Shown here in pieces: positions 7,790 to 60,188 of a stretch of 64,000 bases of DNA. The notes under the pieces are model-generated. The model made no database searches, had not been told where the DNA came from, and saw only the letters and a list, made by a program, of their open reading frames with translations. The translations under genes and the position numbers were made by a program. Within the stretch, counting starts at the first letter, position 1. Each line of letters opens with the position of its first letter. This stretch comes from Desulfovibrio mangrovi (lineage in GTDB: Bacteria > Desulfobacterota > Desulfovibrionia > Desulfovibrionales > Desulfovibrionaceae): positions 744,001 through 808,000 of the forward strand of contig NZ_CP104208.1 of NCBI RefSeq assembly GCF_026230175.1. The letters run 5' to 3'.

Positions 7790-10018
7790 ATGCGAATCGG
7801 CTTACGGCTTTTTATCGGATTTAGTTTCATGCTTCTCCTGCTGGCGGCAATGGTTGCCGTGGGGTGGGAAGGGCAGAGAAGAATGACAATTGCGCAGGGC
7901 GTGCTGGAGCGCAGGGCAATGCTTGAGGCGGAGTTGCGCACCATGCAGGCCGGAGCGTTGCAGTTCATGCTGGAGCCCAAACCAGGAGCTCTGGATGCTG
8001 TGCTTTCCCGCAGCGGTCAACTGGACCAGTCTTTCTCCGCCTTCAAGATGGCGGTGGAGCACGATGTTGCCGTGCGGCTTGATAAGGCCATGCGTGCGAA
8101 TATTGAGTTTCGTGGTGCGCTGGAGCGTTGGCAGTCCGTGTCTGATGGCAGGGCTACCCGCTTGCAGGAAGCCGAGAATGCCGCAGGGCAGTTTCTGACG
8201 TTGTTCGACGAGTTGGCAGGCAAGAAGCGCGATGCCGCTTTTCTGCATCCTGACGGATATGCCAGCGCGGATGTCGTGAATAACCGTCTTGCGGAACTGC
8301 GGTTGGTGAATGATGTGCAGCGGGAATTTTACGAAGCCCGCATGCTTTCCCGTGAGTGGATGCGTTCCGGTGATGCCAAGGTGCTGGAAGAAGTGCGTAC
8401 CCGTATGGGCAACGTGCTGACCCTGTTGGGAGATCTGAAGGGCACCATGACGGCGCTGGCTGACAAGGATTTTGCTGATACCCTGCTGGCGCACGGGCGC
8501 GACTACCTCGCCTCCCTGAGTGACCTTGAAGACTCCACGGGGCTCATGAACGATGTGCGATCCACACTGGCCTCTGCCGTGGCGGATATGCGCGACCCCA
8601 TGAAGGTGCTGGCCGACAAGTACGAGGCAGATCTCGACTATGTCCACGACATCGGCACGTTGACCGTTGGCGGTATTGTGGCTCTTGCGGTTTTTGTGGC
8701 GCTTATCTTTACACTCATAATCAGTTCAGGTGTGCGCAAGCGGCTGGCCAGAGCGCAGAAGGCTCTTGATGCGTTGGCAGCCGGGGAATGTCCTGTCCGT
8801 GATCCCAAGGATTCTGTGGAGGACATGGGCCTGCTGACAGACGCCATGCAACGTCTTGCCTTAAGCAGTACGGACATGGCCGAATGTGTTCAGGCCATGG
8901 CCCGGGGCGAGTGGGACGTGCAGGTTCCCGTGCGTTCCGAAAAGGACGTACTCGGAAATGCTCTGAGGCAACTGGCAGAGAATGGGCTGGTGGTTCGCAA
9001 GGTTCTGCAGCGTGGAGCCAACGGCGATTTCAATCAATCGATTCCCCCTCAATCCAAGGGCGATGCTGCGGTCGCAGCTCTGGACGGTTTACAGCAGTTT
9101 GTAAACGTCAAGGTCGGAACTGCCCGCAATGCGACTCTGGCTGTGCGGGATGCCGCAGGCAGGGCCATGGAGGCCCTGAAAAGCCTTGAATCGCGCATTG
9201 CGGAGAAAGGTGCAAGGCCTGAATCTTCCGGCGCGTTGAGCGATATGCTTCCCCGGCTCGAGTCTGTGAATGCGGCTCTGAAGGGCAACGCAGCAAGCCT
9301 GAAGGATGCCGACAAGGGCACAGACAGGCTGGCAGGAGCGGTGAAGCGGCTTGATGCGGAATTTCGCACCCTCATGGGTAAGGCCTCGTTTGCAGAAGAT
9401 GTGGCCAGACAGATCGAAACACTGGCCATCAACGTGAATATCGAAATGGGCAGGGTCGGTGACAACGCCGGAGGTCTGGCCGCCATCGTTACGGAACTCA
9501 AGGCAGTTGTAGACAGGTGCCGTGAGCATTCTGCAGCCATGAATGACTCCTTGTATGCGGGCCGCAGGGCTTCTGATGATACGGCAGCCCTGATCCGTGA
9601 CGTGCAGGAAGCCTTGGGTCACAGCGTTCAGGTTGTAGTAGCCGGAGCCGCTGTGCTTGAAGATGAAATGGCAGCATTGAGGACCATGGCTTCCTCCCGT
9701 GCCGCTCATGCCCGTGCGGGTGAGCGCGATGATGAATTGCGTGCGTTTGCTTCGCTCATGGGCAAGTCTTTCAGTGGTCTTGTCATGGAATTGAATACGT
9801 TGCGTTCGGCTCTTGATGCGTTCCGGATCGCAGGGGATCAGGGGCAGGCTGTACCGGCTCAAGGTGCGACAGGGCGTTTCCTTGCCGAAGACGGGAAAGG
9901 AAAGCCTCGAGATGCGCAGCTAAGCCAGGGGCAGCGACCTTCTGTCCGCTCCATGCCTCCTTTGCGATTGGGTAAGGGTAAGGAAGACTTTGCCGAGCTG
10001 GAAGGAGAAGATCTGTAA
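7790..10018 (+). CDS. Membrane HAMP sensor with degenerate chemoreceptor-like signalling domain
   Basis: 742 residues from the ATG at 7790. The GTG three bases earlier sits too close to the GGAG site. A membrane helix at about 8-26 and a second at about 291-313 enclose a 260-residue, all-helical periplasmic sensor. A HAMP-like segment follows, then a long alanine-rich coiled coil to about residue 680 and a charged tail. At about 541-575 the chain aligns with the chemoreceptor hairpin tip but is eroded: the sequence around LAINVNIEMGRVGDN stands where LALNAAVEAARAGEQ is usual, followed by GLAAIVTELK for [10 protein letters not shown]. The key N, E, R, G and E positions remain, but most flanking contact residues are changed. 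It may be a divergent receptor or a sensor no longer coupled to CheA. It ends at a terminator shared with the convergent EAL protein. Confidence 0.75.
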   Translation: MRIGLRLFIGFSFMLLLLAAMVAVGWEGQRRMTIAQGVLERRAMLEAELRTMQAGALQFMLEPKPGALDAVLSRSGQLDQSFSAFKMAVEHDVAVRLDKAMRANIEFRGALERWQSVSDGRATRLQEAENAAGQFLTLFDELAGKKRDAAFLHPDGYASADVVNNRLAELRLVNDVQREFYEARMLSREWMRSGDAKVLEEVRTRMGNVLTLLGDLKGTMTALADKDFADTLLAHGRDYLASLSDLEDSTGLMNDVRSTLASAVADMRDPMKVLADKYEADLDYVHDIGTLTVGGIVALAVFVALIFTLIISSGVRKRLARAQKALDALAAGECPVRDPKDSVEDMGLLTDAMQRLALSSTDMAECVQAMARGEWDVQVPVRSEKDVLGNALRQLAENGLVVRKVLQRGANGDFNQSIPPQSKGDAAVAALDGLQQFVNVKVGTARNATLAVRDAAGRAMEALKSLESRIAEKGARPESSGALSDMLPRLESVNAALKGNAASLKDADKGTDRLAGAVKRLDAEFRTLMGKASFAEDVARQIETLAINVNIEMGRVGDNAGGLAAIVTELKAVVDRCREHSAAMNDSLYAGRRASDDTAALIRDVQEALGHSVQVVVAGAAVLEDEMAALRTMASSRAAHARAGERDDELRAFASLMGKSFSGLVMELNTLRSALDAFRIAGDQGQAVPAQGATGRFLAEDGKGKPRDAQLSQGQRPSVRSMPPLRLGKGKEDFAELEGEDL

Positions 10019-47283: not shown

Positions 47284-48414
47284 ATGAATTCCCCCATGCG
47301 AACTCTTCAGATAATCAACGTGCGCTGGTTCAATGCCACGGCATGGTATGGCCTGTACCTCGGAACGCTGCTGCAGCGAGCCGGTCATGAGACCCGCATC
47401 ATTGTCCTGCAGAACACGCCTGGGGCGACAAAGACCCGCGAGTGGGGCATGCAGGGCATTCATATGGACCTCAACACGGCCCAGCCCGTCAGGCTGCTGC
47501 GCACCTACGGCCAGATGCACCGTCTGGTGACCGGCTTCAAGCCGGACATCGTGAACTGTCATCGGGGCGAAGGGTTCATGCTCTGGGGGTTGCTCAAGAA
47601 GCAGCTCGCGGGCGGCCCCAATGCCTTCAAGCTTGTTCGCACGCGCGGTGACCAACGCCTGCCGAAGAACAACGCCATAAACCGCTGGCTGCATACCGAT
47701 GTGGCCGATGCCGTGGTGGCGACGAACTCCGTCATGGCGCGTCATTTCACCGATGTGTTGCATGTGCCGGCGTCCAAGGTGCACACCATCTTCGGCGGGG
47801 TGGATGCCGAACGCTTCACCTTTGAAGCTGATGGTCGAGCCCGCGTGCGAGCCGAGTTCGGTTACCGCGAGGACGATTTTGTCGTTGGCCTGCTGGGCCG
47901 TTTTGACGAGGTCAAGGGCCAGCGGGAAACCATTGAAGCCGTTGCGTCTTTGCGCAGGCAGGGCATGACCAATATCCGGCTGATGCTGCTCGGGTTTGAC
48001 AGTGCAACGCCGCAAAAGGTGGTGCAGGACTGGATACGCGAAAACGGCGTTGAGGATATCTCCGTCATCACCGGAAAGCGCGATGATGTGGTTGCCTGCC
48101 TCTCTGCGCTTGATGCTGGCGTCATTGCATCCAAGTGGTCCGAGACCATAGCCCGTGCCGCGCTGGAAATCATGGCCTGCGAACGTCCTCTTATCTCCAC
48201 GGATGTGGGGGTTATGCCCGACCTGCTGGAGCCCGACGCCCTGTTCCGTCCTGCCGATGTCGAGGCGCTTGCCGCGGCCATCCGCCGCGTGGCTACGGAC
48301 GCGGACTATCGACGCACGTTGCTTGAACAGCAGCAGCTCCGCATTCGTTCCCTCAGCGGGCAGCATTTTCTCGATCAGACGCTCTCCCTCTACAACGCTC
48401 TTTTGCAGAAATAA
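47284..48414 (+). CDS. Glycosyltransferase family 4
   Basis: 376 residues from the ATG at 47284; another ATG at 47296 (MRTLQIINV) is equally possible. GT-B fold: N-terminal Rossmann domain RTLQIINVRWFNATAWYGLY, and C-terminal donor domain with VGLLGRFDEVKGQRETIEA, LLGFDSATPQKVV and the E-x7-E motif at ETIARAALEIMACERPLIST. It probably adds a sugar to a surface polymer. Acceptor unknown. Threonine aldolase follows 8 bp later on the same strand. Confidence 0.85.
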   Translation: MNSPMRTLQIINVRWFNATAWYGLYLGTLLQRAGHETRIIVLQNTPGATKTREWGMQGIHMDLNTAQPVRLLRTYGQMHRLVTGFKPDIVNCHRGEGFMLWGLLKKQLAGGPNAFKLVRTRGDQRLPKNNAINRWLHTDVADAVVATNSVMARHFTDVLHVPASKVHTIFGGVDAERFTFEADGRARVRAEFGYREDDFVVGLLGRFDEVKGQRETIEAVASLRRQGMTNIRLMLLGFDSATPQKVVQDWIRENGVEDISVITGKRDDVVACLSALDAGVIASKWSETIARAALEIMACERPLISTDVGVMPDLLEPDALFRPADVEALAAAIRRVATDADYRRTLLEQQQLRIRSLSGQHFLDQTLSLYNALLQK

Positions 48415-48422
48415 GGTGCCAC

Positions 48423-49451
48423 GTGATAAATTTTGCCAGTGATAACGCCTCGGGCGTTCATCCCCGTGTTCTTGCGGCCCTTGGCCGTGCCAATGAAGGT
48501 TTTGCCCGTGCCTACGGAGACGACAGACATACCGCAGAGGCGGATGCAGTCTTCAAGACCCTGTTCGGCGACGATATTGCCGTGTTCTATGCGATCAACG
48601 GCACCGGTGCCAACGTGCTGGGGCTGAAGAGCCTTGTACGCTCCTACCATGCGGTGATCTGTTCGCAGATGGCGCATATCAATGTGGATGAGACCGGAGC
48701 ACCTGAAGCATCCATCGGGTGCAAGCTGCTCACCCTGCCTTCACCCAACGGCAAGATTACGCCTGAGCAGGTGAAGCCTCTGCTGGCTGCGCAGGGCGTT
48801 GTGCATCATAGCCAGCCCAAGGCCATTTCCATTACGCAGGCCACGGAGTTCGGTGAAGTGTATACGCCTGATGAAGTGCGGGCTCTTGCCGATCTTGCCC
48901 ATGCACACGGCATGTTCCTCCATATGGACGGTGCCCGCATCGCCAACGCTGCCGCATTTCTTGGTGTGGATGTGAACGCGTTTACCCGCGACGCAGGAGT
49001 GGACGTCCTCTCCTTCGGCGGCACAAAGAACGGCATGATGTTCGGTGAAGCGGTGGTGTTTTTCAACGTATCCGCCAATCCGGTTCCGAGCTCGGATTTT
49101 CCCTATCTGCGCAAGCAGAACCTGCAGTTGCTTTCCAAGATGCGCTACGTTTCCTGCCAGTTTGCGGAAATGCTTCGGGACGGCCTGTGGTTGGAGAGCG
49201 CCCGTCATGCCAATGCCATGGCGCAGCGCCTTGCACGCGGGCTTGAGGCCGTTTCCGGCATGACCGTGGTGAACAGGGTGGAGGCGAATGAAGTATTCGT
49301 CGCAATGTCCCCCGAGCGTATTGATGTCTTGCAGGAGCAGTTCTATTTCTATGTGTGGGATGCATCCCTGCATCAGGCGCGTCTGGTCTGTTCCTTTAAC
49401 ACCACAGAGGCAGAAGTGGACGCTTTTATCGCGGCTGCCGCCACGGCATAG
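48423..49451 (+). CDS. ltaE: Low-specificity L-threonine aldolase
   Basis: PLP enzyme that cleaves L-threonine to glycine and acetaldehyde. 342 residues with a GTG start at 48423 (AAGGTG upstream). The cofactor lysine is K202 in SFGGTKNGMM, with D169 (HMDGAR) for the pyridine nitrogen and R172. The N-terminal MINFASDNASG motif is typical. Adjacent to a glycosyltransferase with short spacing but no functional link evident. Confidence 0.9.
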   Translation: MINFASDNASGVHPRVLAALGRANEGFARAYGDDRHTAEADAVFKTLFGDDIAVFYAINGTGANVLGLKSLVRSYHAVICSQMAHINVDETGAPEASIGCKLLTLPSPNGKITPEQVKPLLAAQGVVHHSQPKAISITQATEFGEVYTPDEVRALADLAHAHGMFLHMDGARIANAAAFLGVDVNAFTRDAGVDVLSFGGTKNGMMFGEAVVFFNVSANPVPSSDFPYLRKQNLQLLSKMRYVSCQFAEMLRDGLWLESARHANAMAQRLARGLEAVSGMTVVNRVEANEVFVAMSPERIDVLQEQFYFYVWDASLHQARLVCSFNTTEAEVDAFIAAAATA

Positions 49452-49506
49452 ACGGAAATACGCACGGAGCGGAGCGTTCCGATCTTTTAATCCGGAAAAG
49501 AGTCAG

Positions 49507-49541
49507 AAGGCCGGGAACCAACAGGTTCCCGGCCTTCTTGT
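49507..49541 (+). terminator. Bidirectional terminator between ltaE and arrD
   Basis: A 13-bp perfect stem AAGGCCGGGAACC / GGTTCCCGGCCTT with an AACA loop, then TCTTGTTTG. Serves both convergent genes. Confidence 0.8.
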
Positions 49542-49550
49542 TTGTGTTTG

Positions 49551-50177
49551 CTATAGAGAGAGGATTTCGGGGCTGAATGTTTGCAGTGTCGTTCGGGTCA
49601 GTGATGCAAGTGTATGGTAGAACGGTGTGGCGGCACTTTCCTGTACAGCTGTGCAGAATGGGTCGATCCATCGTGCCGGATGGTTGTTCACGAAAGCCGT
49701 CAGTTGCGAACGGCATCGGGCTGAGCCTTGCATGTCGTTCTGAACCCGGGCCTGCATTTCCTTGTGCAGCAGGTAGTACATGAACTCCAGTTCTGCCGAG
49801 AGGTGGTCGGGTGGATTGCCGAAATCCGCGCTGACCTCAAGCCCCGCAGCCTGATAGTGGTGCAGGGCATCATAGGTTGTTTCACCCATGATGCGTCTGC
49901 CTTCTTCCAGATAGACTGAACCGAAGGGCGCGGCGAACAGTTCGAACGGGCCTATGAAAAGACGGGCATAGTCCCGCAGCAGCTCGGCGGGCTCTGTGTC
50001 GGTCAGGCTTTGGTGCAGAGGGGCGGGTACTGTTTGGGATATTGCCAGCGCGTTCAATGATTCATCCAGCATGGTTACGTAGGCAGGGAACGAGTCGCCC
50101 GGCTCCCTGTAACAATGCGCCAAGGCGAACAGGGCGTTACACCATGCTGCAATTCTGCTTTCACTTCCGCTTTTCAT
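49551..50177 (-). CDS. arrD: TorD-family chaperone of the arsenate reductase (ArrD-like)
   Basis: 208 residues from the ATG at 50177, preceded by GGAGA; a GTG four codons up is in frame. All-helical Mo-enzyme maturation chaperone, seen in YARLFIGPFELFAAPFGSVYLEE and NPPDHLSAELEFMYYLL, the TorD signature. It should bind the Tat signal of ArrA and hold it until the molybdopterin cofactor is inserted. Last gene of the arr operon, 57 bp after arrC. Confidence 0.82.
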   Translation of the reverse strand: MKSGSESRIAAWCNALFALAHCYREPGDSFPAYVTMLDESLNALAISQTVPAPLHQSLTDTEPAELLRDYARLFIGPFELFAAPFGSVYLEEGRRIMGETTYDALHHYQAAGLEVSADFGNPPDHLSAELEFMYYLLHKEMQARVQNDMQGSARCRSQLTAFVNNHPARWIDPFCTAVQESAATPFYHTLASLTRTTLQTFSPEILSL

Positions 50178-50234
50178 ATGAGTCTCCACAGGCGGCAGGG
50201 GCTGGTATGTCCGGCCCCTGCCTGTAGCTTGCAG

Positions 50235-51335
50235 TTAGGAAGCATTATCAAGTCTGAGTTTGCTCTCTCCCCATGTGTACAGGAGCAGCATGACACATAC
50301 TGCGAAGTCGACCACAAGCAGTTCCCAGAGGTTGGGGGTGTAGCTGAGCAGGGCTGGAAGTCCTTCGCCCTTGGGACCTACAGGCTGCAGTTGGCCGGAG
50401 AGTATGACCTGAAACAGGATGGAGAAAGCGCCCGCCAGCGCCGTTGCCGGTGCAAATATCCGGGCCCACGAAGTCTGGCGCAGGTTTGATTCCGCCATCA
50501 AGGCAAATGGAACGGCGAGCCATATTGCTGAACCAATGCCGATAGAGTTGGTTAGTGCAGGCACGGTGGCGGCTGATTCCAGAAGTATTTTCAGAACGAG
50601 CAGCAACAGGGCTGCGCCGGAAGAGAGGTACAGCAGCCTGCCGAGATAGTTCATGCTGCTGGTGACGGCTGCGGAAGGCCTGCCGGATGAGATGGATTGG
50701 AGAATGGATTGATGGAAGAGAATGGCTGAGACGCCGCCCATGAAGGCAAGGGAGAGGAAGAGCACGGAGATGAAGGGGCCGAAGTAGGTCGGGCGTGCTT
50801 CCGTGAGTCCGAAAACCGCGCCGAGCATCAGAGCTGCAAAAAGGCTGCAGAACATGGAAAGAAGGCTGAGCAGCTTGCCTGAACCATCAGCGGTGCCCTT
50901 GGTTCGCATCTGGGCGAATTTGATGATGAGCAGAACAAGCTCGAGGCTGTAAAGCGCACCCATGTACCAGATGGGGGATGACAGGTTGGGGGAAAGAAGA
51001 AGCTGATACATGTGCCCCAGAGAACCCAGTTCAAGGCCGATGGCTATGAAGGCGGCCGCAAGGGTGGCTATGGCAAGAAATGTCAGCCTCTTGGCCTGCG
51101 GCATCAATTCCTTGACGCCGAAGACCAGCGGCATGGATGCCACAAGAGCCAGCCCTGTGCTGGTAAGGGCAAAGAACACGTATGCCACAAGCGGCAATGT
51201 CCAGACGATGACATCGTTGGCCTTGAACAGAGCGTGCCCTTCGCTGAACAACTGGGCCGCCGTATAGAGGCCAGTCAGGACGCCTGCTCCGAGAAGAGCA
51301 AGCCACGGAACTCGCAAGGTGTTTGCCAAACTCAT
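50235..51335 (-). CDS. arrC: NrfD/PsrC-like membrane anchor (ArrC-like)
   Basis: 366 residues with about ten membrane helices. The start is ATG at 51335, preceded by a strong AAAGGAGG; it overlaps the arrB stop as ATGA. It has the NrfD-type pattern of hydrophobic helices with polar gaps (AQLFSEGHALF, LGSLGHMYQLLLSPNLSSPIWYMG). The family oxidises membrane quinol and passes electrons to the FeS subunit. The Shewanella-type arr operon lacks such an anchor, so this enzyme should not need a separate CymA quinol oxidase. Confidence 0.82.
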   Translation of the reverse strand: MSLANTLRVPWLALLGAGVLTGLYTAAQLFSEGHALFKANDVIVWTLPLVAYVFFALTSTGLALVASMPLVFGVKELMPQAKRLTFLAIATLAAAFIAIGLELGSLGHMYQLLLSPNLSSPIWYMGALYSLELVLLIIKFAQMRTKGTADGSGKLLSLLSMFCSLFAALMLGAVFGLTEARPTYFGPFISVLFLSLAFMGGVSAILFHQSILQSISSGRPSAAVTSSMNYLGRLLYLSSGAALLLLVLKILLESAATVPALTNSIGIGSAIWLAVPFALMAESNLRQTSWARIFAPATALAGAFSILFQVILSGQLQPVGPKGEGLPALLSYTPNLWELLVVDFAVCVMLLLYTWGESKLRLDNAS

Positions 51336-52060
51336 TTGAGGCCTCCTTTCGTCTGGATATACGTGCCGGGGTTGAAACTGCGGATGTAAAAGATCTTGGG
51401 CTCCGTACCCAGTTCTTCTTTCAACCGGTACGGACGGTATTTCCCGAGCAGTTTGCTTACTTCGCTTTCCGGATCGTCCAGATCGCCGAAGATGCGTGCA
51501 TCGGCAGGGCACGCCTCTACGCAGTAAGGCAGTTGCCCCTTCTTGAGCCGGTGGTCGCAGAAGGTGCATTTTTCGACGACGCCTCTGGGCCTTAACCCGG
51601 GCAGAGTCGCATCCCGGTCAGGATTTAAGAAAGGCGTTCCCTGGGTTTTCAGTTTTGCCAGATCCGCTGCAGGCGACGAGGTGCAGTTCGGTATCAGCTC
51701 GCCCTGCTTGTTCTGCTGGCTGAACGGGTCTCGCCAGTTGAAGTAGATGACCCCATAGGGGCAGTTGAACATGCAGTATTTGCATCCTATGCACTTATCC
51801 GGATCGTGCATGGTTATGCCGCCCTCTGCCTTGTGCATGGCCTGTGTCGGGCAGCCCTGCACGCAGGGGGCGTTCTCACAGTGGTTGCAGAGCGTGGGGG
51901 TGTAGTGGAAGCGTACATTTGGGAAGGTTCCCACAGTCTCGGTGATCTTGTTGGACCATGAGATGCCTTCCGGCGTGTTGTTCTCGTTTTTGCAAGCTAT
52001 GATGCAGCCGCCGCATCCAACGCACCGTTGGTGATCGATAACCATCGCGTATCTTGTCAT
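51332..52060 (-). CDS. arrB: Arsenate reductase iron-sulfur subunit (ArrB-like)
   Basis: 242 residues with four 4Fe-4S motifs: CVGCGGCIIAC, CNHCENAPCVQGCP, CIGCKYCMFNCP, and CTFCDHRLKKG...CVEACP. Electron wire between ArrC and ArrA. Several segments (VGTFPNVRF, YTPTLCNHC, PTQAMHK, KIFYIRSF) match my memory of ArrB more closely than of DmsB or PhsB. No signal peptide, so it is presumably exported with ArrA. 13 bp after arrA. Confidence 0.86.
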   Translation of the reverse strand: MTRYAMVIDHQRCVGCGGCIIACKNENNTPEGISWSNKITETVGTFPNVRFHYTPTLCNHCENAPCVQGCPTQAMHKAEGGITMHDPDKCIGCKYCMFNCPYGVIYFNWRDPFSQQNKQGELIPNCTSSPAADLAKLKTQGTPFLNPDRDATLPGLRPRGVVEKCTFCDHRLKKGQLPYCVEACPADARIFGDLDDPESEVSKLLGKYRPYRLKEELGTEPKIFYIRSFNPGTYIQTKGGLK

Positions 52061-52073
52061 GTCATCTACCTCC

Positions 52074-54644
52074 TTACGCCTTCACTATCTTGACGCGCAC
52101 GGTGCTGTAGTAGGCGGTGGAACCGCTGAGCCGTTCAAAGTCCGCAGGAATGATCATGTTGTTATTCCCGCCGCGGGGCTCCTTGCCGAATACCTTTGAT
52201 GCCAGCCTGCCATAGACCCAATGACCTTGCCCGTAGCATTTGGCCACGGTGCCGGGGCGGACGCCTTCCCAGAGTTTTGCGGTGCAGGAAAGTTCTCCGG
52301 TCGGAGAGACCAGCTTGATGGCATCGCCGTTTTTGATGCCCATGGCTTCGGCGTCCACGGGATTGATCTTGGCGACGTCGTCATATTTTTCATCGCCGGG
52401 ATCCAGATCCTTCAACTCATAGTACCAGGCGCAGTTCGCGGAACGTCCTTCGCGGTTCAGGCGGGACTTGTGGTCGACGAAGACGAAGGGGTGGTCAGTC
52501 GGATTGCCATGCACGAAGGGTTCTTCAAAATGTGGCACAAAGGCTCTTTCACCGCGCGCAAGATATTTGCTGGCTTCAAGCACGGCATCCACGTCCGTTT
52601 CATGCTTTTCGGCGTGGGCTCCCAGCGCTTTCTTCAGTGTCTCACTGTAGAACTCGAACTTCTTGGTATCGGTCTTCATCTCAGACCAGCGTTTTTTGTA
52701 CGGGTAGGGATCGGAGTTCCATACGCCTATTTTGCGGAAGTGCTCCCAGCCCTCAAACTTGTCGCCCCCCTTGTGCAGGGCGGGATCCCACAGAGGTTGG
52801 GTTGCATACTTCAACGCGTAGAGTGCGAATTCCTTTTCATTGGAAGGGGGAACGCCGGTTTCCGGATCCTTGTATTCGGTGCGGAAGTAGTCGAGCAGGT
52901 TGGTGAAACCTCGCTGTGCAAGCTTTTCTGCCAGCAGCCAGGGGATTTCAGTTTCGTCGATCTTGTAATCCCAGAGAGGTTCGATAACGGGCTGCATGAT
53001 GGTGACATGCCTGTAGCCGTTACCTATGGACTTCACGTATCCCCACTTTTCGAAGAGATGGTGCGTGTCCGGCAGAAGGATGTCCGAGAACCATGAGAAT
53101 TCGGACGCATTGGTGGTGATGTGGGTGATGAAGGGAATTTTGCTCAGTGCTTCTTCCCAGCGCTGACCTTGCGGAGCGGAGAAGGGGAAGTTGTTCATGT
53201 AGGCAATGACGACCTTGATATCATAGGGGTCTTCATTGATAACGCCGGTAGGAACGTTGTTTGTGATGACGGCACTGCCCGGTTTGCCGGCGTTGATGGC
53301 CGGAAACTCCAGTCTTCCGCGTTGATCGATCTTCTCGTGCTTCTTGCCCTTCTTGGCGATGTCATCGAAATAGTGATCCGGCTTCGGGAACTTGTTGGTA
53401 TATTCCTTGTTGGCAACAAGCGTACCGCCTACGTTGTCGCAGGCGCCCACCAGACCGTTGAGCGCGTGGCAGGCCATGCTGGTATAGCCGCCGCGTACCT
53501 GCATGACGGGGCCGCCGCCGACCCACGACATGACGTGGGGAGCCAGAGAGCCGAACTCGGTGGCAACGCGCCGTATCTGTTCGGCTGAAACGCCTGCAAG
53601 CTCCGCTGCCCATTCCGGCGTCTTGTCTTTGAGTTCCAGGTTCCACCAGCGCACGAGTCCGTGCGTGTGCACCTCTGCAAACGTGGTTTCATCCACTTCC
53701 TGTCCGACGACGAATCTGTTTACGCCATCCGTAAAGTCGCCGACGAACTCCTTGCTCCACAAGCCCGAGGTGAGAATGACGTGTGCCATGGCAACGGCGA
53801 TGGCCCCATCGTAACCGGGCTTTGCTGCAATCCATTCATCAGCCTTGGCAGCCGTGGCGGAGAGTCTGGGTTCAACAATCGCCACCTTGGCGTTGCCTAT
53901 GGCTTCGCCCCATGCCTTGGAGTAGTAGGATACCTGTCGGTTTGCAGCCAGCGGATCGGCTCCCCAGAGAAGAATGTAGCGCGTGTTCAGCACATCGTAC
54001 TGACGGTAGTCCCAGTAGCCTTCCGTGTAGTATGGGCCGAACTTTTCCGCTTCCGCACACAGTGCGCTGTGGGAGATGTTGTTGGGCGACCCGATGATCT
54101 TCGTTGTAAAGTCATAGAGAATGTCGCGCATATAGGTGTATCTGCCACGCAGAAGCATGTACTTATGCGTTTCATGTGCGTTGCGCAGTTCCATTATCTT
54201 GTCGGCAATGGTGTCCAGCGCTTCATCCCATGTAATGGGGACAAAGCCGGGGTCCTCATTTCTGCCTTTCTTGGGATTGGTGCGTTTCATGGGGGTCTTG
54301 ATCCGGTCGGGATCATACACCTGCTGCAGACCCATGTGGCCCCTTGGACAAGAAGCGCCCAAGTTGACCTTGGAATGGGGATTGCCGCGAACTTTTACCG
54401 CACGCCCTTCAACAACGTAGACTTGTTTGGAACACCATGAAGTGCAGCCTTGGCATGTGGAGGCCAGCCATTCTCCCTGCGGCGTTTCACGTACTGCCGC
54501 TTTGGCCTCAGTGAGTGCACTCAGCGCAGGCTTGGTAAAAACGCCTCCAGACAGTGCGGCGCATGTAATAGCTGCGCCTTTAACAAAGTTACGCCTGGAT
54601 TGGTTCTGGTTCTTCCTTCGGGCACTTTGCGTTTTGGGCGACAT
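52074..54644 (-). CDS. arrA: Respiratory arsenate reductase catalytic subunit (ArrA-like)
   Basis: Periplasmic molybdopterin enzyme that reduces arsenate to arsenite as terminal acceptor. 856 residues, ArrA length; TtrA is longer, PsrA/PhsA shorter. GGAGGTT precedes the ATG. Tat signal SRRNFVKG at 17-24. A 4Fe-4S site is formed by C64, C67, C71 and C99. The Mo ligand is Cys196 in NISHSALCAEAEKFG. Residues R168, Y169, H192, C196, K201 and Y213 have the same spacing as the arsenate-binding set I recall for Shewanella ArrA (R165, Y166, H189, C193, K198, Y210). YYTEGYWDY is a further ArrA hallmark. Polysulfide or thiosulfate reductases lack this set. An arsenite-oxidising Arx enzyme is less likely. 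Confidence 0.86.
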   Translation of the reverse strand: MSPKTQSARRKNQNQSRRNFVKGAAITCAALSGGVFTKPALSALTEAKAAVRETPQGEWLASTCQGCTSWCSKQVYVVEGRAVKVRGNPHSKVNLGASCPRGHMGLQQVYDPDRIKTPMKRTNPKKGRNEDPGFVPITWDEALDTIADKIMELRNAHETHKYMLLRGRYTYMRDILYDFTTKIIGSPNNISHSALCAEAEKFGPYYTEGYWDYRQYDVLNTRYILLWGADPLAANRQVSYYSKAWGEAIGNAKVAIVEPRLSATAAKADEWIAAKPGYDGAIAVAMAHVILTSGLWSKEFVGDFTDGVNRFVVGQEVDETTFAEVHTHGLVRWWNLELKDKTPEWAAELAGVSAEQIRRVATEFGSLAPHVMSWVGGGPVMQVRGGYTSMACHALNGLVGACDNVGGTLVANKEYTNKFPKPDHYFDDIAKKGKKHEKIDQRGRLEFPAINAGKPGSAVITNNVPTGVINEDPYDIKVVIAYMNNFPFSAPQGQRWEEALSKIPFITHITTNASEFSWFSDILLPDTHHLFEKWGYVKSIGNGYRHVTIMQPVIEPLWDYKIDETEIPWLLAEKLAQRGFTNLLDYFRTEYKDPETGVPPSNEKEFALYALKYATQPLWDPALHKGGDKFEGWEHFRKIGVWNSDPYPYKKRWSEMKTDTKKFEFYSETLKKALGAHAEKHETDVDAVLEASKYLARGERAFVPHFEEPFVHGNPTDHPFVFVDHKSRLNREGRSANCAWYYELKDLDPGDEKYDDVAKINPVDAEAMGIKNGDAIKLVSPTGELSCTAKLWEGVRPGTVAKCYGQGHWVYGRLASKVFGKEPRGGNNNMIIPADFERLSGSTAYYSTVRVKIVKA

Positions 54645-54677
54645 ACAACCTCCGGATTGCTTCTAGCTGTAAGAAAA

Positions 54678-54708
54678 AACACAATGAGATAGTTTGTGTT
54701 GTATAGTA
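54678..54708 (-). promoter_or_regulatory. Inverted-repeat operator candidate upstream of arrA
   Basis: A perfect 7-bp repeat AACACAA / TTGTGTT with a 9-base spacer (54678-54700) sits 33 bp before the arrA start. On the minus strand a TACTAT -10 candidate (54703-54708) is directly upstream, which would put the transcription start inside the repeat, as expected for a repressor site. No good -35 is seen. Confidence 0.5.
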
Positions 54709-54826
54709 GCAGAAAGAGCGATGATTGCCGTTATATATTGAGAACCATGCAGGTTGTCTTTTGGCGTCGTGGAGCGGCTTGCTGTTGAAGGGCAAGGGGA
54801 CGTGGTGAGTGAGGTGATAACAAGAT

Positions 54827-54856
54827 AAAGGCGCCCCGGTTGGGAGGCGCCTTTCG
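54827..54856 (-). terminator. Terminator of the deacetylase gene, insulating the arr promoter
   Basis: An AAAGGCGCC / GGCGCCTTT stem, followed on minus by TTTATC. It lies between the deacetylase stop and the arrA promoter region. Confidence 0.72.
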
Positions 54857-54928
54857 TGTTGCAATGGGTATTGCGGTGAGGATGAAGCTGGGCAGCTACC
54901 TCTACGGCAGCTTGGGAGGTGGGCTAGC

Positions 54929-56029
54929 CTACAGGCGTATGGACGAATACAGGTTGGCAAGCCACGGGCGGGAGTAAATCTGCAGCCGCATCATCATCCA
55001 TGAGGCAGGTTTGTCCTTTGCTTTGAAGCGGTGCACGTGATCAGCGCAGCCGCCGGGGTTTGCGCCCATGTTCGTGGTAAAGAAACACTGGTACCCCAAG
55101 TCCTTGCCTATGGACAAGGCGTCGGGAGAGAACGCGCCCCACGGCCAGCACAGCGAACGTTCGGGCCTTCCGAGTTTCTGTTCTACGGTCGCCTTGGCTT
55201 CAGCCAGTTCCTGCCGAAGAGCGCCTTGCATGGCCATGTCGTCTTCATATGTGCCCAGTTCTTCCTTGGAGAAGCCTTCAACCAGCGTCTTCAGCCTTTC
55301 CACGTTGTCCGCCTCGGCGAAAAAGGCGTAGGCGGCTTCTTTCTCCTGCGGCACCAGATCGCGGATGGCGTCCATCAGGCGGGAGGAGGGAATGAATGCA
55401 CGATTGGAAAGACGCGGACGATTCTTGAAGCGGGGAAGCCCCCATATGACTTCGGCATCCACACGGTCGAAGGTGCGGCTGCGTTTGCCGGGCTGGAAGA
55501 ATCCGTCATATTCGGGACTCACGAAAACGGTCTTGTGCCATGCGGAGTGAGATGATACCCGCACCACGCCGCTTTTTTCCATGAGCCTTGCCTCTTCCCA
55601 GCTTATGAAGTGATCCGTGCGTTCGTCAAAGCCGAGCGCATGCGGTACATAGGGCTGGTCAACACGGGGCAGGGCATCGGCGGAGCATTCGTTGTTCCAC
55701 ACCTGCTTAAGGGTATTACGGGGCGTTTCGCCGGTTTCAATCTTGCCGGTTACGGCAAAGATCGTCCCCTTGTGCCCGTATTTTTCAAGAATGGGAAAGG
55801 CATAGACGTAGTTGTCCAGAAAGCCGTCGTCAAAGGTGATGAGCACGGATTTATCCGGCAGCGGCTTGCCCTGAATGAAAAAGTCTTCCGCCTCGTCCAG
55901 CCCGATGCCGCGCCACCCCTTGCGGGCCATTGTTGCGCAGTGTTCTTCGAATAGTTCGGGGGAGACGGCAATGGGGTTTTTCCAGCGTGATATATAGTGG
56001 TACATAAGTACCGGAACGGATCTGGTCAT
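54929..56029 (-). CDS. Polysaccharide deacetylase family protein (NodB-like fold)
   Basis: 366 residues, no signal peptide. Motif 1 ITFDDGF at 64-70 (catalytic base and metal aspartates), motif 2 SSHSAWH for the metal histidines, and a variant third motif SLCWPWGAFS in place of RPPYG. It removes acetyl groups from N-acetyl sugars in surface polymers. The family also includes WbmS-like proteins. Divergent from cbpA. Confidence 0.82.
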   Translation of the reverse strand: MTRSVPVLMYHYISRWKNPIAVSPELFEEHCATMARKGWRGIGLDEAEDFFIQGKPLPDKSVLITFDDGFLDNYVYAFPILEKYGHKGTIFAVTGKIETGETPRNTLKQVWNNECSADALPRVDQPYVPHALGFDERTDHFISWEEARLMEKSGVVRVSSHSAWHKTVFVSPEYDGFFQPGKRSRTFDRVDAEVIWGLPRFKNRPRLSNRAFIPSSRLMDAIRDLVPQEKEAAYAFFAEADNVERLKTLVEGFSKEELGTYEDDMAMQGALRQELAEAKATVEQKLGRPERSLCWPWGAFSPDALSIGKDLGYQCFFTTNMGANPGGCADHVHRFKAKDKPASWMMMRLQIYSRPWLANLYSSIRL

Positions 56030-56051
56030 GATGCTTTGAAGGGGAGTGCGG

Positions 56052-56079
56052 TTGACTATGAATTATGGTGCGTTATGTT
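56052..56079 (+). promoter_or_regulatory. Sigma-70-type promoter candidate of cbpA
   Basis: TTGACT and TATGTT are separated by 16 bp, 80 bp upstream of the cbpA start. A GCATT-CGAA-AATGC inverted repeat follows. No CIRCE element is present. Confidence 0.45.
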
Positions 56080-56161
56080 AGCATTCGAAAATGCAGAACG
56101 CTCGTCTGCATTGCAAACGGCGGGATTCCGCCAGTCGTCTTACTGAGGAGAGCTATACGAG

Positions 56162-57094
56162 ATGGGAGTTGAATACAAGGATTATTATAAATTGTTGGGC
56201 GTATCCAGAAGCTCATCAAAAGACGATATCGCAAAAGCATTCAAGAAGCTGGCGCGTCAGTATCATCCTGACCTCAATCCGAACAACAAGGACGCGGAAG
56301 CCAAGTTCAAGGAGATAAACGAGGCGTACGAGGTGCTCAAGGATGACGAAAAGCGCAAGCTGTATGACCAGCTTGGGCCAAACTGGCAGCATGGCCAGAA
56401 CTTCCAGCGCCCCCCCGGATTTGAGAATATGAATTTCGGAGGTTTTCAGGGCGGTGGGGATTTCAGCGATTTCTTTGAAACCATTTTTGGTGGCGGAGGG
56501 TTCCGACGTTCCGGTGGCGGCTTCGGTGCTGATCCCTTCGGCAATTATTCCAACAGGCCGCGTCGCGGGCGTGATGTGGAGGCGACCCTCGGCCTGACGC
56601 TGGAAGAAGCCTATCATGGAGGCCGCAAGGCCGTGACCATTCAGGATGCCGGTGCCAGCAAGACCCTTGAAGTGAACATTCCCGCCGGCGTCAAGGACGG
56701 GGCGAAGATCCGTCTCTCCGGTCAGGGAGACCGGGGGATGGCGGGCGGCCCCAGCGGGGATCTGTATCTCAAGGTGGTTATCAAGCCCCACAACCGCTTC
56801 CAGCTGGATGGCGTGAACGTGGTGCTCGATCTGCCGCTCGCCCCGTGGGAGGCCGTTCTTGGTGCCACGGTGCGTGTTCCCACATTGGATGGCGATATTG
56901 AGCTCAATATACCTGCCGGAACGGGTAGCGGCCGGAAGCTGCGCCTGCGCGGCAAGGGCCTTGGCAGCGCATCGGCACGTGGCGATCAGTTCGTCCGTGT
57001 CATGGTCAGGGTACCGGATTCGTTGACCGAAAAGGAACGGGGCCTGTGGGAGAGCTTGCGTGAAGTTTCCGGCTTTTCGCCCCGGGATTTCTAG
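56162..57094 (+). CDS. cbpA: DnaJ-class co-chaperone CbpA
   Basis: 310 residues. J-domain at 1-70 with the HPD tripeptide at 35-37, Gly/Phe-rich linker at about 85-135, and C-terminal peptide-binding domains ([38 protein letters not shown]). No zinc-finger cysteines, which distinguishes CbpA from DnaJ. It stimulates DnaK. Followed by cbpM and clpB on the same strand, a proteostasis cluster. Confidence 0.92.
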
Positions 57095-57147
57095 TTCCGT
57101 TCCGGAAATTAGCGAAAGGGATACGTGCATTCATATAGGTATCTGAG

Positions 57148-57170
57148 GGCAGGAGCCGCCGGCTCCTGCC
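57148..57170 (+). terminator. Strong hairpin between cbpA and cbpM
   Basis: A perfect 10-bp stem GGCAGGAGCC / GGCTCCTGCC with a 3-base loop, no T-tract. More likely an attenuator or RNA-stability element than a full terminator. Confidence 0.5.
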
Positions 57171-57232
57171 TCCTGAAACCGGAAAGCACAACAGCAACAA
57201 ACTGCACATGAAACACGCCTGCGGAGGCCATG

Positions 57233-57550
57233 ATGGATATGTATCGTTATGACGAAGACCTGCCCATTCAGTCCGACTACATCGCATGGGCGGAGTTTAT
57301 CGAACTTGCCGCGGTGCACCCCACGCGGCTTGGCGAACTGCTGGAACTGGGGTGGCTGCATCCTGCGCGCACCGCACAGGAAGAATATCTTTTCACGCGC
57401 AAAGACGTATACCGCATCCGTAAGCTTGAGCGCATTTGCGCCGATTTCAATCTGAACGCGCTCGGCGGTTCCATCATTGTGGATCTGCTGGATCGTATCG
57501 ATCAACTGGAGCGCAAGGTGCAGGAACTGGAACTGCTGATACGCGACTGA
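57233..57550 (+). CDS. cbpM: CbpM-like chaperone modulator, MerR-type fold
   Basis: 105 residues from the second of two adjacent ATGs (57233), which has correct spacing to GGAGG. Helical, with a winged-helix-like part (FIELAAVHPTRLGELLELGWL, LFTRKDVYRIRKLERI) and a C-terminal coiled coil. CbpM inhibits the J-domain of CbpA, and the gene position after cbpA supports this. Confidence 0.8.
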   Translation: MDMYRYDEDLPIQSDYIAWAEFIELAAVHPTRLGELLELGWLHPARTAQEEYLFTRKDVYRIRKLERICADFNLNALGGSIIVDLLDRIDQLERKVQELELLIRD

Positions 57551-57590
57551 TAATTCTCATTCATACTGCTTATTGCGGGAGAGATGACGC

Positions 57591-60188
57591 ATGAATCTGA
57601 ACCAATTCACCGAAAAATCACAACTTGCCATCAGCGAGGCGCAGAACGTTGCCATCCGTCTGGGACACCAGCAGGTGGACGTTGAGCATCTTGTGCAGGC
57701 GCTGGTGGAGCAGGAAAACGGACTTGTGAGCCGTTTGCTGGAACAGATGGGGCACAAGCCCAAGGCGTATCTTGAGGCTCTGGGCAAGGAATTGCGCAGA
57801 CGGCCTTCCGTGAGCGGTCCCGGTGTGGGACCCGATTCCATCTATGTTACCCCGCGGCTTAATCGTATGCTGGTGCGGGCGCAGGATTTTGCCAAGCGTC
57901 TGCAGGACGAATACGTGAGTGTGGAACACCTGTTCTGTGCGGCGCTGGATGAGCCTGCCTCGTCCGAAGTGGGGCGTGTTAACAAGGAGTTCGGTCTCAA
58001 TCAGGATAAGGTGCTCGCCGCATTGACCCACGTGCGAGGTGCGCAGCGTGTTACCTCGCCCAATCCCGAAGACACCTACGAGGCGCTCAGGAAATACGGG
58101 CGCGATCTCGTTGAGGAAGCCCGCAAGGGCAAGCTGGACCCCGTGATCGGACGCGATGCGGAGATACGTCGTACCATCCGTATCCTTTCCCGTCGCACCA
58201 AGAACAACCCCGTGCTCATCGGCGAGGCTGGCGTGGGCAAGACCGCCATCGTGGAGGGCCTTGCGCACCGCATTCTCAACGGGGATGTACCGGAAAGCCT
58301 GAAGGACAAAAGTCTCTTTGCGCTGGATATGGGGGCGCTCATTGCCGGTGCCAAGTACCGCGGCGAGTTCGAGGAACGCCTGAAGGCTGTGCTCAAGGAA
58401 GTGGAGAAGGCCGAAGGCCGCATCCTCATGTTCATTGACGAACTGCACATCATTGTGGGGGCGGGCAAGACGGACGGCGCCATGGATGCGAGCAACCTGC
58501 TCAAGCCCATGCTGGCCCGTGGCGAACTGCACTGCATAGGCGCGACGACGCTGGATGAGTACCGCAAGTACATAGAAAAGGACCCTGCGTTCGAGCGCCG
58601 GTTCCAGCCCATCGTGGTGGAGGAACCCACCGTTGAGGATACGATTTCCATTCTGCGTGGTCTGAAGGAACGTTTTGAAGTGCATCATGGCGTGCGCATC
58701 AGCGACTCCTCCATCGTGGAGGCCGTGACCCTTTCGGACAGGTACATTTCCGACAGGCAATTGCCGGACAAGGCCATTGACCTGATCGATGAAGCTGCCG
58801 CCATGATCCGCACGGAGATTGACTCCCTGCCGTCGGAACTGGATGAAGCCAACCGCAAGATCATGCAGCTTGAGATTGAACGCGAAGCTCTGCGCCGCGA
58901 AAGCGACGAAGGTTCCCGCGAACGTCTGCGCAAGCTTGAAAACGAGCTTGCGGGGCTGCGTGAGAATCAGGCCACCCTCATGTCCCAGTGGGAACGTGAA
59001 AAGGGCACCATCAACTCCGAGCGCAATCTCAAGGAAGAGATTGAGCGTACCCGCCGCGCCATTGAGGAGGCGGAACGCAACTATGATCTTAATCGCGCGG
59101 CGGAACTCAAGTATTCCACACTGCTCAATCTGGAAAAACAACTGGCCGAGTATCAGGCCGGTGAAGACAAGGATGGCAGGCTCCTCAAGGAGGAAGTGCA
59201 TCCCGACGACATCGCCGAGATAGTGGCGCGCTGGACGGGCATTCCCGTATCCAAGCTGCTGGAAGCCGAACGGGAGAAACTGCTGCGTCTGGGTGAAGAG
59301 CTGCACAAGCGTGTTGTCGGGCAGGATGAGGCCGTGAATGCCGTGGCGGAAGCGGTGTTGCGCTCCCGCGCGGGGCTTTCAGACCCCAACCGGCCTATCG
59401 GGTCCTTCATCTTCCTCGGCCCCACCGGGGTGGGCAAGACCGAGCTGTGCAAGACGTTGGCTGCCGCGCTGTTTGATTCGGAAGAGAACATCGTTCGTCT
59501 GGACATGAGCGAGTACATGGAAAAGCACACCGTGGCGCGACTCATCGGTGCGCCTCCCGGCTACGTGGGGTACGACGAGGGCGGTCAGCTGACCGAGGCC
59601 GTGCGCCGCAAGCAATACAGCGTGGTGCTCTTTGACGAGATCGAAAAGGCGCATCCCGACGTGTTCAACGCCCTGCTCCAGATTCTGGACGACGGGCGGC
59701 TCACGGACAGTCATGGACGTACCGTGAACTTCAAGAATACCATCATCATCATGACCTCCAACGTCGGGGCTCCGCTCATGCTTGAGGGCATTACCGATGA
59801 TGGAGAGTTCAAGCCCGGTGTGCGTGGTTCCGTCATGCGGGAGCTGAGGAACAACTTCAGGCCCGAGTTCCTGAACCGTGTGGACGAAACGGTGCTGTTC
59901 AGGCCGCTGATGCTTGATCAGATCAAGCAAATAGTGGGCCTGCTCATGCAACGGCTGCAGGCGCGCCTTGATGAGCGTTCCATTACTGTTGAGCTTGATG
60001 AGGCCGCTGCCGACCACATTGCACGGGTTGCGTACAACCCCGTATATGGTGCCCGTCCGCTCCGCCGGTACCTGCAACAGCATGTGGAGACGCCCCTTGC
60101 CCGCATGATCATTGGCGGGGAGCTGCAGGATGGCAGGCAGGTACGCATAGGCTTGGAGCAGGAAAAGCTGGTTTTTGAAATATTGTAG
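57591..60188 (+). CDS. clpB: ATP-dependent chaperone ClpB
   Basis: Hexameric disaggregase working with DnaK. 865 residues. N-domain at 1-145; first AAA+ with Walker A GEAGVGKT and [15 protein letters not shown]; coiled-coil M-domain at about 405-525; second AAA+ with [29 protein letters not shown] and the sensor region [11 protein letters not shown]. No ClpP-binding IGF loop, so it is a disaggregase and not a protease subunit. 40 bp after cbpM. Confidence 0.95.

Follow-up and report, generated by a model that had tools for sequence, protein, structure and literature searches.

Does the genome of Desulfovibrio mangrovi encode a respiratory arsenate reductase, and would this enzyme allow the organism to use arsenate as a terminal electron acceptor? 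The question is raised by four adjoining genes, arrA-arrB-arrC-arrD, located on the minus strand at positions 49551-54644 of a stretch of 64,000 nucleotides. This stretch (hereafter the window, to which positions refer unless stated otherwise) corresponds to positions 744001-808000 of a chromosome that forms a single contig of 3,947,083 bases. An earlier note, made from the letters of the window, interpreted these genes as a complete arsenate-respiration operon in a sulfate-reducer-like genome and proposed that few relatives are known to share the trait. The qualification of the genome as sulfate-reducer-like holds because the host carries dsrA, found above cut-off at chromosome position 2485285 with a related frame adjoining. 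From the sequence comparisons presented here, we estimate at roughly 0.86 the probability that arrABCD is a quinol:arsenate oxidoreductase operon, and we infer that the host most likely breathes arsenate by means of it.

The gene content, the families, the motifs and the position of the block were read from the sequence. The first gene, arrA (52074-54644), encodes the catalytic subunit of 856 amino acids, a predicted molybdoenzyme exported by the twin-arginine translocation (Tat) system. Its product carries the Tat motif SRRNFVK, a [4Fe-4S] motif CX2CX3CX27C beginning at residue 64 and the sequence RGRY at residues 166-169. The arrB gene (51332-52060) starts 13 nucleotides past arrA, is preceded by AGGAGG and encodes a polyferredoxin subunit of 242 amino acids whose 17 cysteines suffice for four [4Fe-4S] clusters. 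The start ATG of arrC (50235-51335), which encodes the NrfD/PsrC-type membrane anchor, overlaps the arrB stop codon (ATGA); for this reason the protein was assigned 366 amino acids instead of the length of a longer mechanical open reading frame, the latter being used in the ArrC profile scans. The last gene, arrD (49551-50177), encodes a TorD/DmsD-like chaperone of 208 amino acids and starts with an ATG behind GGAG, 57 nucleotides past arrC. A hairpin terminator of 15 pairs (49505-49538) separates arrD from a threonine-aldolase-like gene that converges on it. The tightly packed set of molybdenum subunit, four-cluster iron-sulfur subunit, NrfD-type anchor and TorD-like chaperone, separated by short spacers or overlapping, is therefore present as the earlier note had described it, with all four frames intact. 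Endowed with ribosome-binding sites and a terminator, the block constitutes, on paper, a self-contained transcription unit.

The identity of the subunits was approached with profiles and structures. ArrA reaches 1300 bits with the NCBIfam ArrA model, against 267 bits with the next model, PhsA, and 68 bits with TtrA, and 1137 bits across residues 46-855 with the ArrA of PDB entry 6cz7; its second-best PDB match is the thiosulfate/polysulfide reductase 2vpw (153 bits). ArrB scores 326 bits with the NCBIfam ArrB model (next, DsrO, 199 bits) and 297 bits with chain B of 6cz7. As sequence matches, those of ArrA and ArrB are far beyond chance. ArrD is recognized by Pfam Nitrate_red_del with 107.9 bits.

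Several observations weigh against the assignment. The curated cut-offs of the NCBIfam models are missed by both ArrA (1300 of 1600 bits, NF041714) and ArrB (326 of 450 bits, NF041715, an uncalibrated cut-off). ArrD stays under cut-off with NCBIfam DmsD (66 bits) and TorD (64 bits), and ArrC has no NCBIfam match. No arsenic regulator adjoins arrABCD, and the reference set of the trees described below is without a proven antimonate reductase (AnrA). The behavior of the ArrA model was calibrated with named enzymes: Shewanella ArrA passes the 1600 cut-off with 1659.9 bits, and the enzymes of Mesobacillus selenatarsenatis SF-1 (1117.5 bits), which we take to be an arsenate respirer, and of Tepidibacillus decaturensis (1146.8 bits) fail it. 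Because these two also fall short, with scores even lower than that of the window ArrA, the cut-off leaves out part of the enzyme family; two ArxA obtain 435 and 438 bits with this model, so that the window protein, at 1300 bits, stands well on the ArrA side.

Two trees were computed to place the catalytic subunit. The first contains 75 rows, includes 32 of the 80 named ArrA loci and is rooted on TtrA rows; the second contains 38 rows and was obtained with a mixture model and bootstraps. The references comprise two ArxA (one of them, L101, from a named plasmid and called ArxA by motif and gene order), one annotated PhsA (L102), five Phs/Psr-like rows (two in the 38-row tree) and, in the 75-row tree only, three TtrA (L131, L132 and L135, with 1138-1162 bits under the TtrA cut-off). 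Among the Phs/Psr-like rows, scoring was limited to L018, which gave 562.8 bits on the PhsA model and stayed under its cut-off, and the set is without a proven PsrA. The alignment took in 79 of the 80 named ArrA loci; L048, whose ArrA frame is interrupted, was left out of trees and motif counts. Also excluded were L001 and L138, which are the window itself, the fragment L140, five of the rows labeled 'unk' (L145, L156, L157, L159 and L160) and the TtrA loci L133, L134 and L136. Duplicate sequences occur among the rows (L006/L076 and L003/L054).

In both trees, a single branch sets all ArrA rows, the window among them, apart from the other rows, with support 100 (75 rows) and 100/100 (38 rows), whatever the root. 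The nearest group outside ArrA is ArxA, with a joint support of 85 in the 75-row tree and 97/94 in the 38-row tree; the tree program flagged both the ArxA and the ArrA branches as long and warned that joins between them may be spurious. Beyond ArxA come a group of unknown function, then the Phs/Psr-like rows (both trees) and TtrA (75-row tree), and branches of support 98 to 100 part the ArrA rows from the Phs/Psr-like and TtrA rows. The phylogenetic check that the earlier note had proposed has thus been run and did not place the window ArrA with reductases of polysulfide, thiosulfate or tetrathionate. Within ArrA, the window belongs to a set of nine rows from its own order (support 99/98) in the 38-row tree and to a matching set of 19 rows (support 98) in the 75-row tree, one of which (L139) belongs to a different order or class within the phylum; neither tree gives it a resolved placement inside that set. 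A separate observation concerns molybdoenzymes from genomes of family f13 (L141-L147, L154-L157, L159 and L160), a group of unknown function found beside the ArxA and ArrA branch in up to three copies per genome. Three of its rows are in the 38-row tree (support 90/85), and where ArrA has its motif, the eight aligned members read GGRY, GGRS or SGLN.

The motifs were examined in the same alignment. In the excerpts available to us, (R/K)GRY is given as the ArrA motif (PMC6549141, PMC11283718) and XGRGWG as that of ArxA (PMC6549141). RGRY occurs in all 103 ArrA rows of the alignment, a count that takes in the window and a few duplicates, and in neither of the two ArxA rows, which read YGRG and FGRG at these columns. 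Cys196, presumably the molybdenum ligand, is constant in all 103 ArrA rows. In 158 columns the ArrA rows show a constancy of 98% or more, and the window ArrA agrees with 156 of them; 49 of these columns also differ from both ArxA, and here the agreement is 48 of 49. On sequence grounds, this catalytic subunit is a genuine ArrA. A separate antimonate-type group with a variant motif (L148-L153, L158 and L161; KGRG in seven, NGRG in one) was considered and rejected because the scanned stretch lay further upstream; at the true motif columns, RGRY is present in all eight. In the locus of the Olavius algarvensis Delta 4 endosymbiont (L048), arrA is broken by a single in-frame TGA at position 9324 and its product is otherwise 72% identical to the window ArrA; pseudogene, sequence error and recoding are indistinguishable in this case.

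Membership of the ArrA clade leaves room for an enzyme whose chief physiological substrate would be another oxyanion, antimonate for example, arsenate reduction being a side activity. According to an excerpt of one report, ArrA serves Sb(V) too and Sb-specific reductases, AnrA and SbrA, exist (PMC13284237). The Shewanella-type ArrA (L083) is only about 61% identical to that of the window, so that function is not automatically carried over. The preserved ArrA motif and near-constant columns argue in the other direction, as does the position inside the ArrA group of trees from which AnrA is absent, and we consider this possibility, the principal alternative, unlikely.

The distribution of the operon among relatives was examined with ArrA-level matches, defined by an E value of 0 and at least 59% identity; incomplete genomes may hide some. 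Such matches were found in 15 of the 99 sampled genomes of the order: 3/59 in the family (the host, G013 and G051), 0/9 among congeners and 12/40 in other families. G013 and L076 share an identical ArrA sequence, which places Pseudodesulfovibrio pelocollis in the family of the host. Arr was already known in such organisms, as excerpts of two reports indicate: arr is present in 370 GTDB reference assemblies and arrA has been transferred frequently (PMC11283718), and cold-seep metagenome-assembled genomes contain 17 arrA, eight of them in Desulfobacterota, arrA being often accompanied by arrC and arrD (PMC10060404). Excerpts on electron transfer in Desulfovibrionaceae (PMC11434368) and on respiration (PMC12481199) contain nothing on arr in the family. 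The proposal that few relatives are known to have the trait therefore needs qualification: arr is patchy in the order and missing from all nine sampled congeners, but it is not rare, considering its frequency in the order and the published Desulfobacterota genomes. A contig assigned by binning to Candidatus Methanoperedenaceae (L059) also carries this type of arrABCD, its ArrA being 71% identical to that of the window, through either transfer to an archaeon or a binning error.

The operon is flanked by genes for a threonine-aldolase-like beta-eliminating lyase (48423-49451) and, according to Pfam, a polysaccharide deacetylase (54929-56029). In ten genomes of the genus, window included, the lyase is encoded in all ten and the deacetylase in four, and the two genes are adjacent in the three congeners holding both (G003, G004 and G006). 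The DNA of G006 is collinear with the window over two segments, 48001-49435 and 54927-56997, and has nothing aligned to what lies between them, which defines a non-aligning stretch at 49436-54926; its limits are similar in G003 and G004. In the place of the operon, these three congeners have a non-aligning spacer of about 60-250 bp. The insertion site of arrABCD is clean and lies between two unrelated genes. The simplest explanation is that the operon was gained in the lineage of the window, the alternative being three losses. Pfam searches on nine neighboring genes, one of which had no match, uncovered neither integrase nor transposase, and the G+C content of the operon, about 0.56, is like that of its surroundings. 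Past the deacetylase gene, adjoining dnaJ-like, small MerR-type and clpB-like genes form a heat-shock cluster at 56162-60188.

Arsenic genes are encountered elsewhere in the genome. The sole ACR3 match of the host is at chromosome positions 2984289-2985278, with an ArsR-type gene at 2985515 directly upstream. A low-molecular-weight phosphatase/arsC-like gene near 1812.2 kb, called arsC-like by eye, carries the CX5R sequence CTGNSCR. Over the whole genome, one ACR3, one LMWPc and six ArsR-type HTH_5 matches were found and none falls inside the window, so the earlier statement that it shows no other ars gene is borne out for these three families, arsA, arsB and arsM not having been searched. Because six of the nine congeners have ACR3 above cut-off and none of these has arr, arsenite efflux is widespread in the genus and arr comes as an addition.

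The control of the operon was sought in the arrA leader (54645-54826, minus strand), bounded upstream by a hairpin at 54827-54854 that resembles a terminator of the deacetylase gene. A scan with a sigma-70-like consensus gave no match in this leader; as it found one site in the region and 2.7 in shuffled sequences, it is uninformative. A different arrangement was noticed by eye in G051 (locus L128, 9579-12701 and 568-1776), where arrA is immediately preceded by receiver-like and sensor-kinase-like frames and has a PhnD-like binding-protein frame in its vicinity. Such frames suggest a dedicated arr regulation there that is lacking in the window. The lack of an adjacent regulator and of a promoter match, together with the absence of the operon from the nine sampled congeners, could also designate arrABCD as a silent passenger, recently arrived or decaying. 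We judge this quite improbable in view of the four intact frames, the ribosome-binding sites, the terminator and the near-constant ArrA columns that have been kept, the promoter scan carrying no weight.

The membrane subunit deserves separate consideration. ArrC is matched by Pfam NrfD (50.7 bits), and a 20-sequence profile produced no PDB sequence match at an E value of 0.01; its fold was therefore predicted instead. The AlphaFold model (predicted local distance difference test, 83.8; predicted template modeling score, 0.88) matches chain C of alternative complex III (best E 3.9e-09) and chain C of menaquinone-bound polysulfide reductase (E 1.0e-05). By family and predicted fold, ArrC is an NrfD/PsrC-type anchor. 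An excerpt on arr operons describes them as CAB or AB (PMC2500031), the anchor gene being upstream of arrA or missing; the window departs from this classical order with an anchor gene downstream of arrB. Among the 80 named ArrA loci, the orders are ABCD (42), AB (10), CABD (7), CBAD (6), ABD (5), BAD (3), A alone (3), BCAD (2) and ABC (2). The 54 loci with enough flank on both sides divide into ABCD (31), AB (9), CABD (5), CBAD (4), ABD (4) and BAD (1). Three AB loci (L025, L047 and L072) show a short arrB match, possibly reflecting assembly damage. In a further set, L061, L062, L064, L067, L070, L071, L073 and L085, both arrB and arrC lie upstream of arrA (CBAD, BCAD); these records, named Omnitrophota, Planctomycetota, Bacteroidetes, Actinomycetota and Chloroflexi, represent a rearranged arr with a distant anchor.

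A profile was built from 49 anchors picked for their likeness to that of the window, the window anchor itself being represented three times and ArxC excluded. Two ArxC, one of them cut off by the end of its locus, score 181 and 168 bits with this profile, versus 35-85 bits for 14 anchors from CABD (7), CBAD (3 of 6), BCAD (2) and CAB (2) loci. By this one measure the window anchor is nearer to ArxC than to classical ArrC, and in anchor type and gene order (A-B-C-D) alike, arrABCD is closer to arx than to the classical C-A-B operon. A limited literature search on an ArxC-like Arr anchor returned nothing, in the excerpts seen, past the statement that arr and arx are similarly arranged (PMC10060404). 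In another excerpt, no more than nine ArrC genes were counted, in Gamma-/Betaproteobacteria and Euryarchaeota, an Alkalilimnicola gene serving as model (PMC8076601). The anchor type of arrABCD is somewhat under-described. We advance as a tentative and rather doubtful idea that the Arr of the sulfate reducers with this layout is a distinct complex with a kept (or captured) Arx-type quinone module. If this were true, arrABCD may be an old layout common with arx from which CAB and AB are derived, and menaquinone coupling, perhaps with ion movement, may differ from that of the Shewanella and Bacillota enzymes.

The same gene order and anchor-profile scores, obtained without ArxC in the profile, could be taken as signs of an Arx-like arsenite oxidase operating from arsenite to quinone. 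This direction is very unlikely: the window ArrA displays RGRY and not XGRGWG, and the trees place it with ArrA and not with ArxA, so that motif and trees reject an ArxA identity. To our knowledge, a sulfate reducer has no obvious high-potential electron acceptor, which also counts against such an oxidase. Psr, Phs and Ttr enzymes are common in anaerobes and share the same subunit plan, but the idea that such a reductase, of polysulfide, thiosulfate or tetrathionate, has been taken for Arr can be dismissed as having next to no probability, given the low PhsA and TtrA model scores and the separating branches, and trees that reject it within a reference set without proven PsrA.

Returning to arrABCD as a quinol:arsenate oxidoreductase operon, a pathway can be proposed in which cofactor, complex formation, quinol coupling and arsenate as physiological acceptor would be as in the corresponding protein families. 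ArrD would help ArrA to mature; ArrA would carry the molybdenum cofactor and be exported together with ArrB by the Tat system. ArrC would draw electrons from the membrane quinol (menaquinol) pool, and the iron-sulfur chain of ArrB would pass them to periplasmic ArrA for the reduction of arsenate to arsenite. The arsenite is probably expelled by Acr3, a pump encoded elsewhere in the chromosome. As a self-contained block, the operon would have come into this lineage, or been retained in it, at a site between two unrelated genes. A dsr-bearing strain of Desulfovibrionaceae is thus predicted to mobilize arsenic through arsenate respiration, and the genus name would not predict it because the trait was not found in nine sampled congeners. 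The anchor-bearing ArrABC complex would also offer a test case for quinol coupling without CymA.

These features can finally be compared with known systems. The Shewanella/Ferrimonas ArrAB of PDB 6cz7 has the same motifs and is matched nearly end to end by the window ArrA and ArrB. In six Shewanella/Ferrimonas loci no anchor gene was found beside arrAB, whereas the window encodes an NrfD anchor and a TorD-like chaperone; electrons reach the Shewanella Arr through CymA, according to an excerpt of one report (PMC2500031). The classical arrCAB followed by a chaperone gene, as in M. selenatarsenatis SF-1 and T. decaturensis, provides the same four functions, but its anchor gene is upstream of arrA and encodes a distant NrfD relative, with 42 and 58 bits on the window-type anchor profile. 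The ArxABCD system on the ORIO plasmid of Cereibacter azotoformans (L101) shares the A-B-C-D order and the anchor type with the window. Its catalytic subunit is only 33% identical to the window ArrA, carries YGRGWG and falls in a separate group, and the operon has ars genes and a sensor-kinase system as neighbors. In its record the protein is annotated simply as a molybdopterin-dependent oxidoreductase, the ArxA label being drawn from motif and gene order. Further counterparts are the arrABCD of Desulfobacula (L022), Desulfosarcina (L033), Desulfoluna (L045) and Pseudodesulfovibrio (L042), in which the gene order is that of the window; across the named loci, identity to the window reaches 75% for ArrA and 53% for full-length ArrC (L054). 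This arrABCD of sulfate-reducer relatives is without counterpart in the nine sampled congeners of the window.

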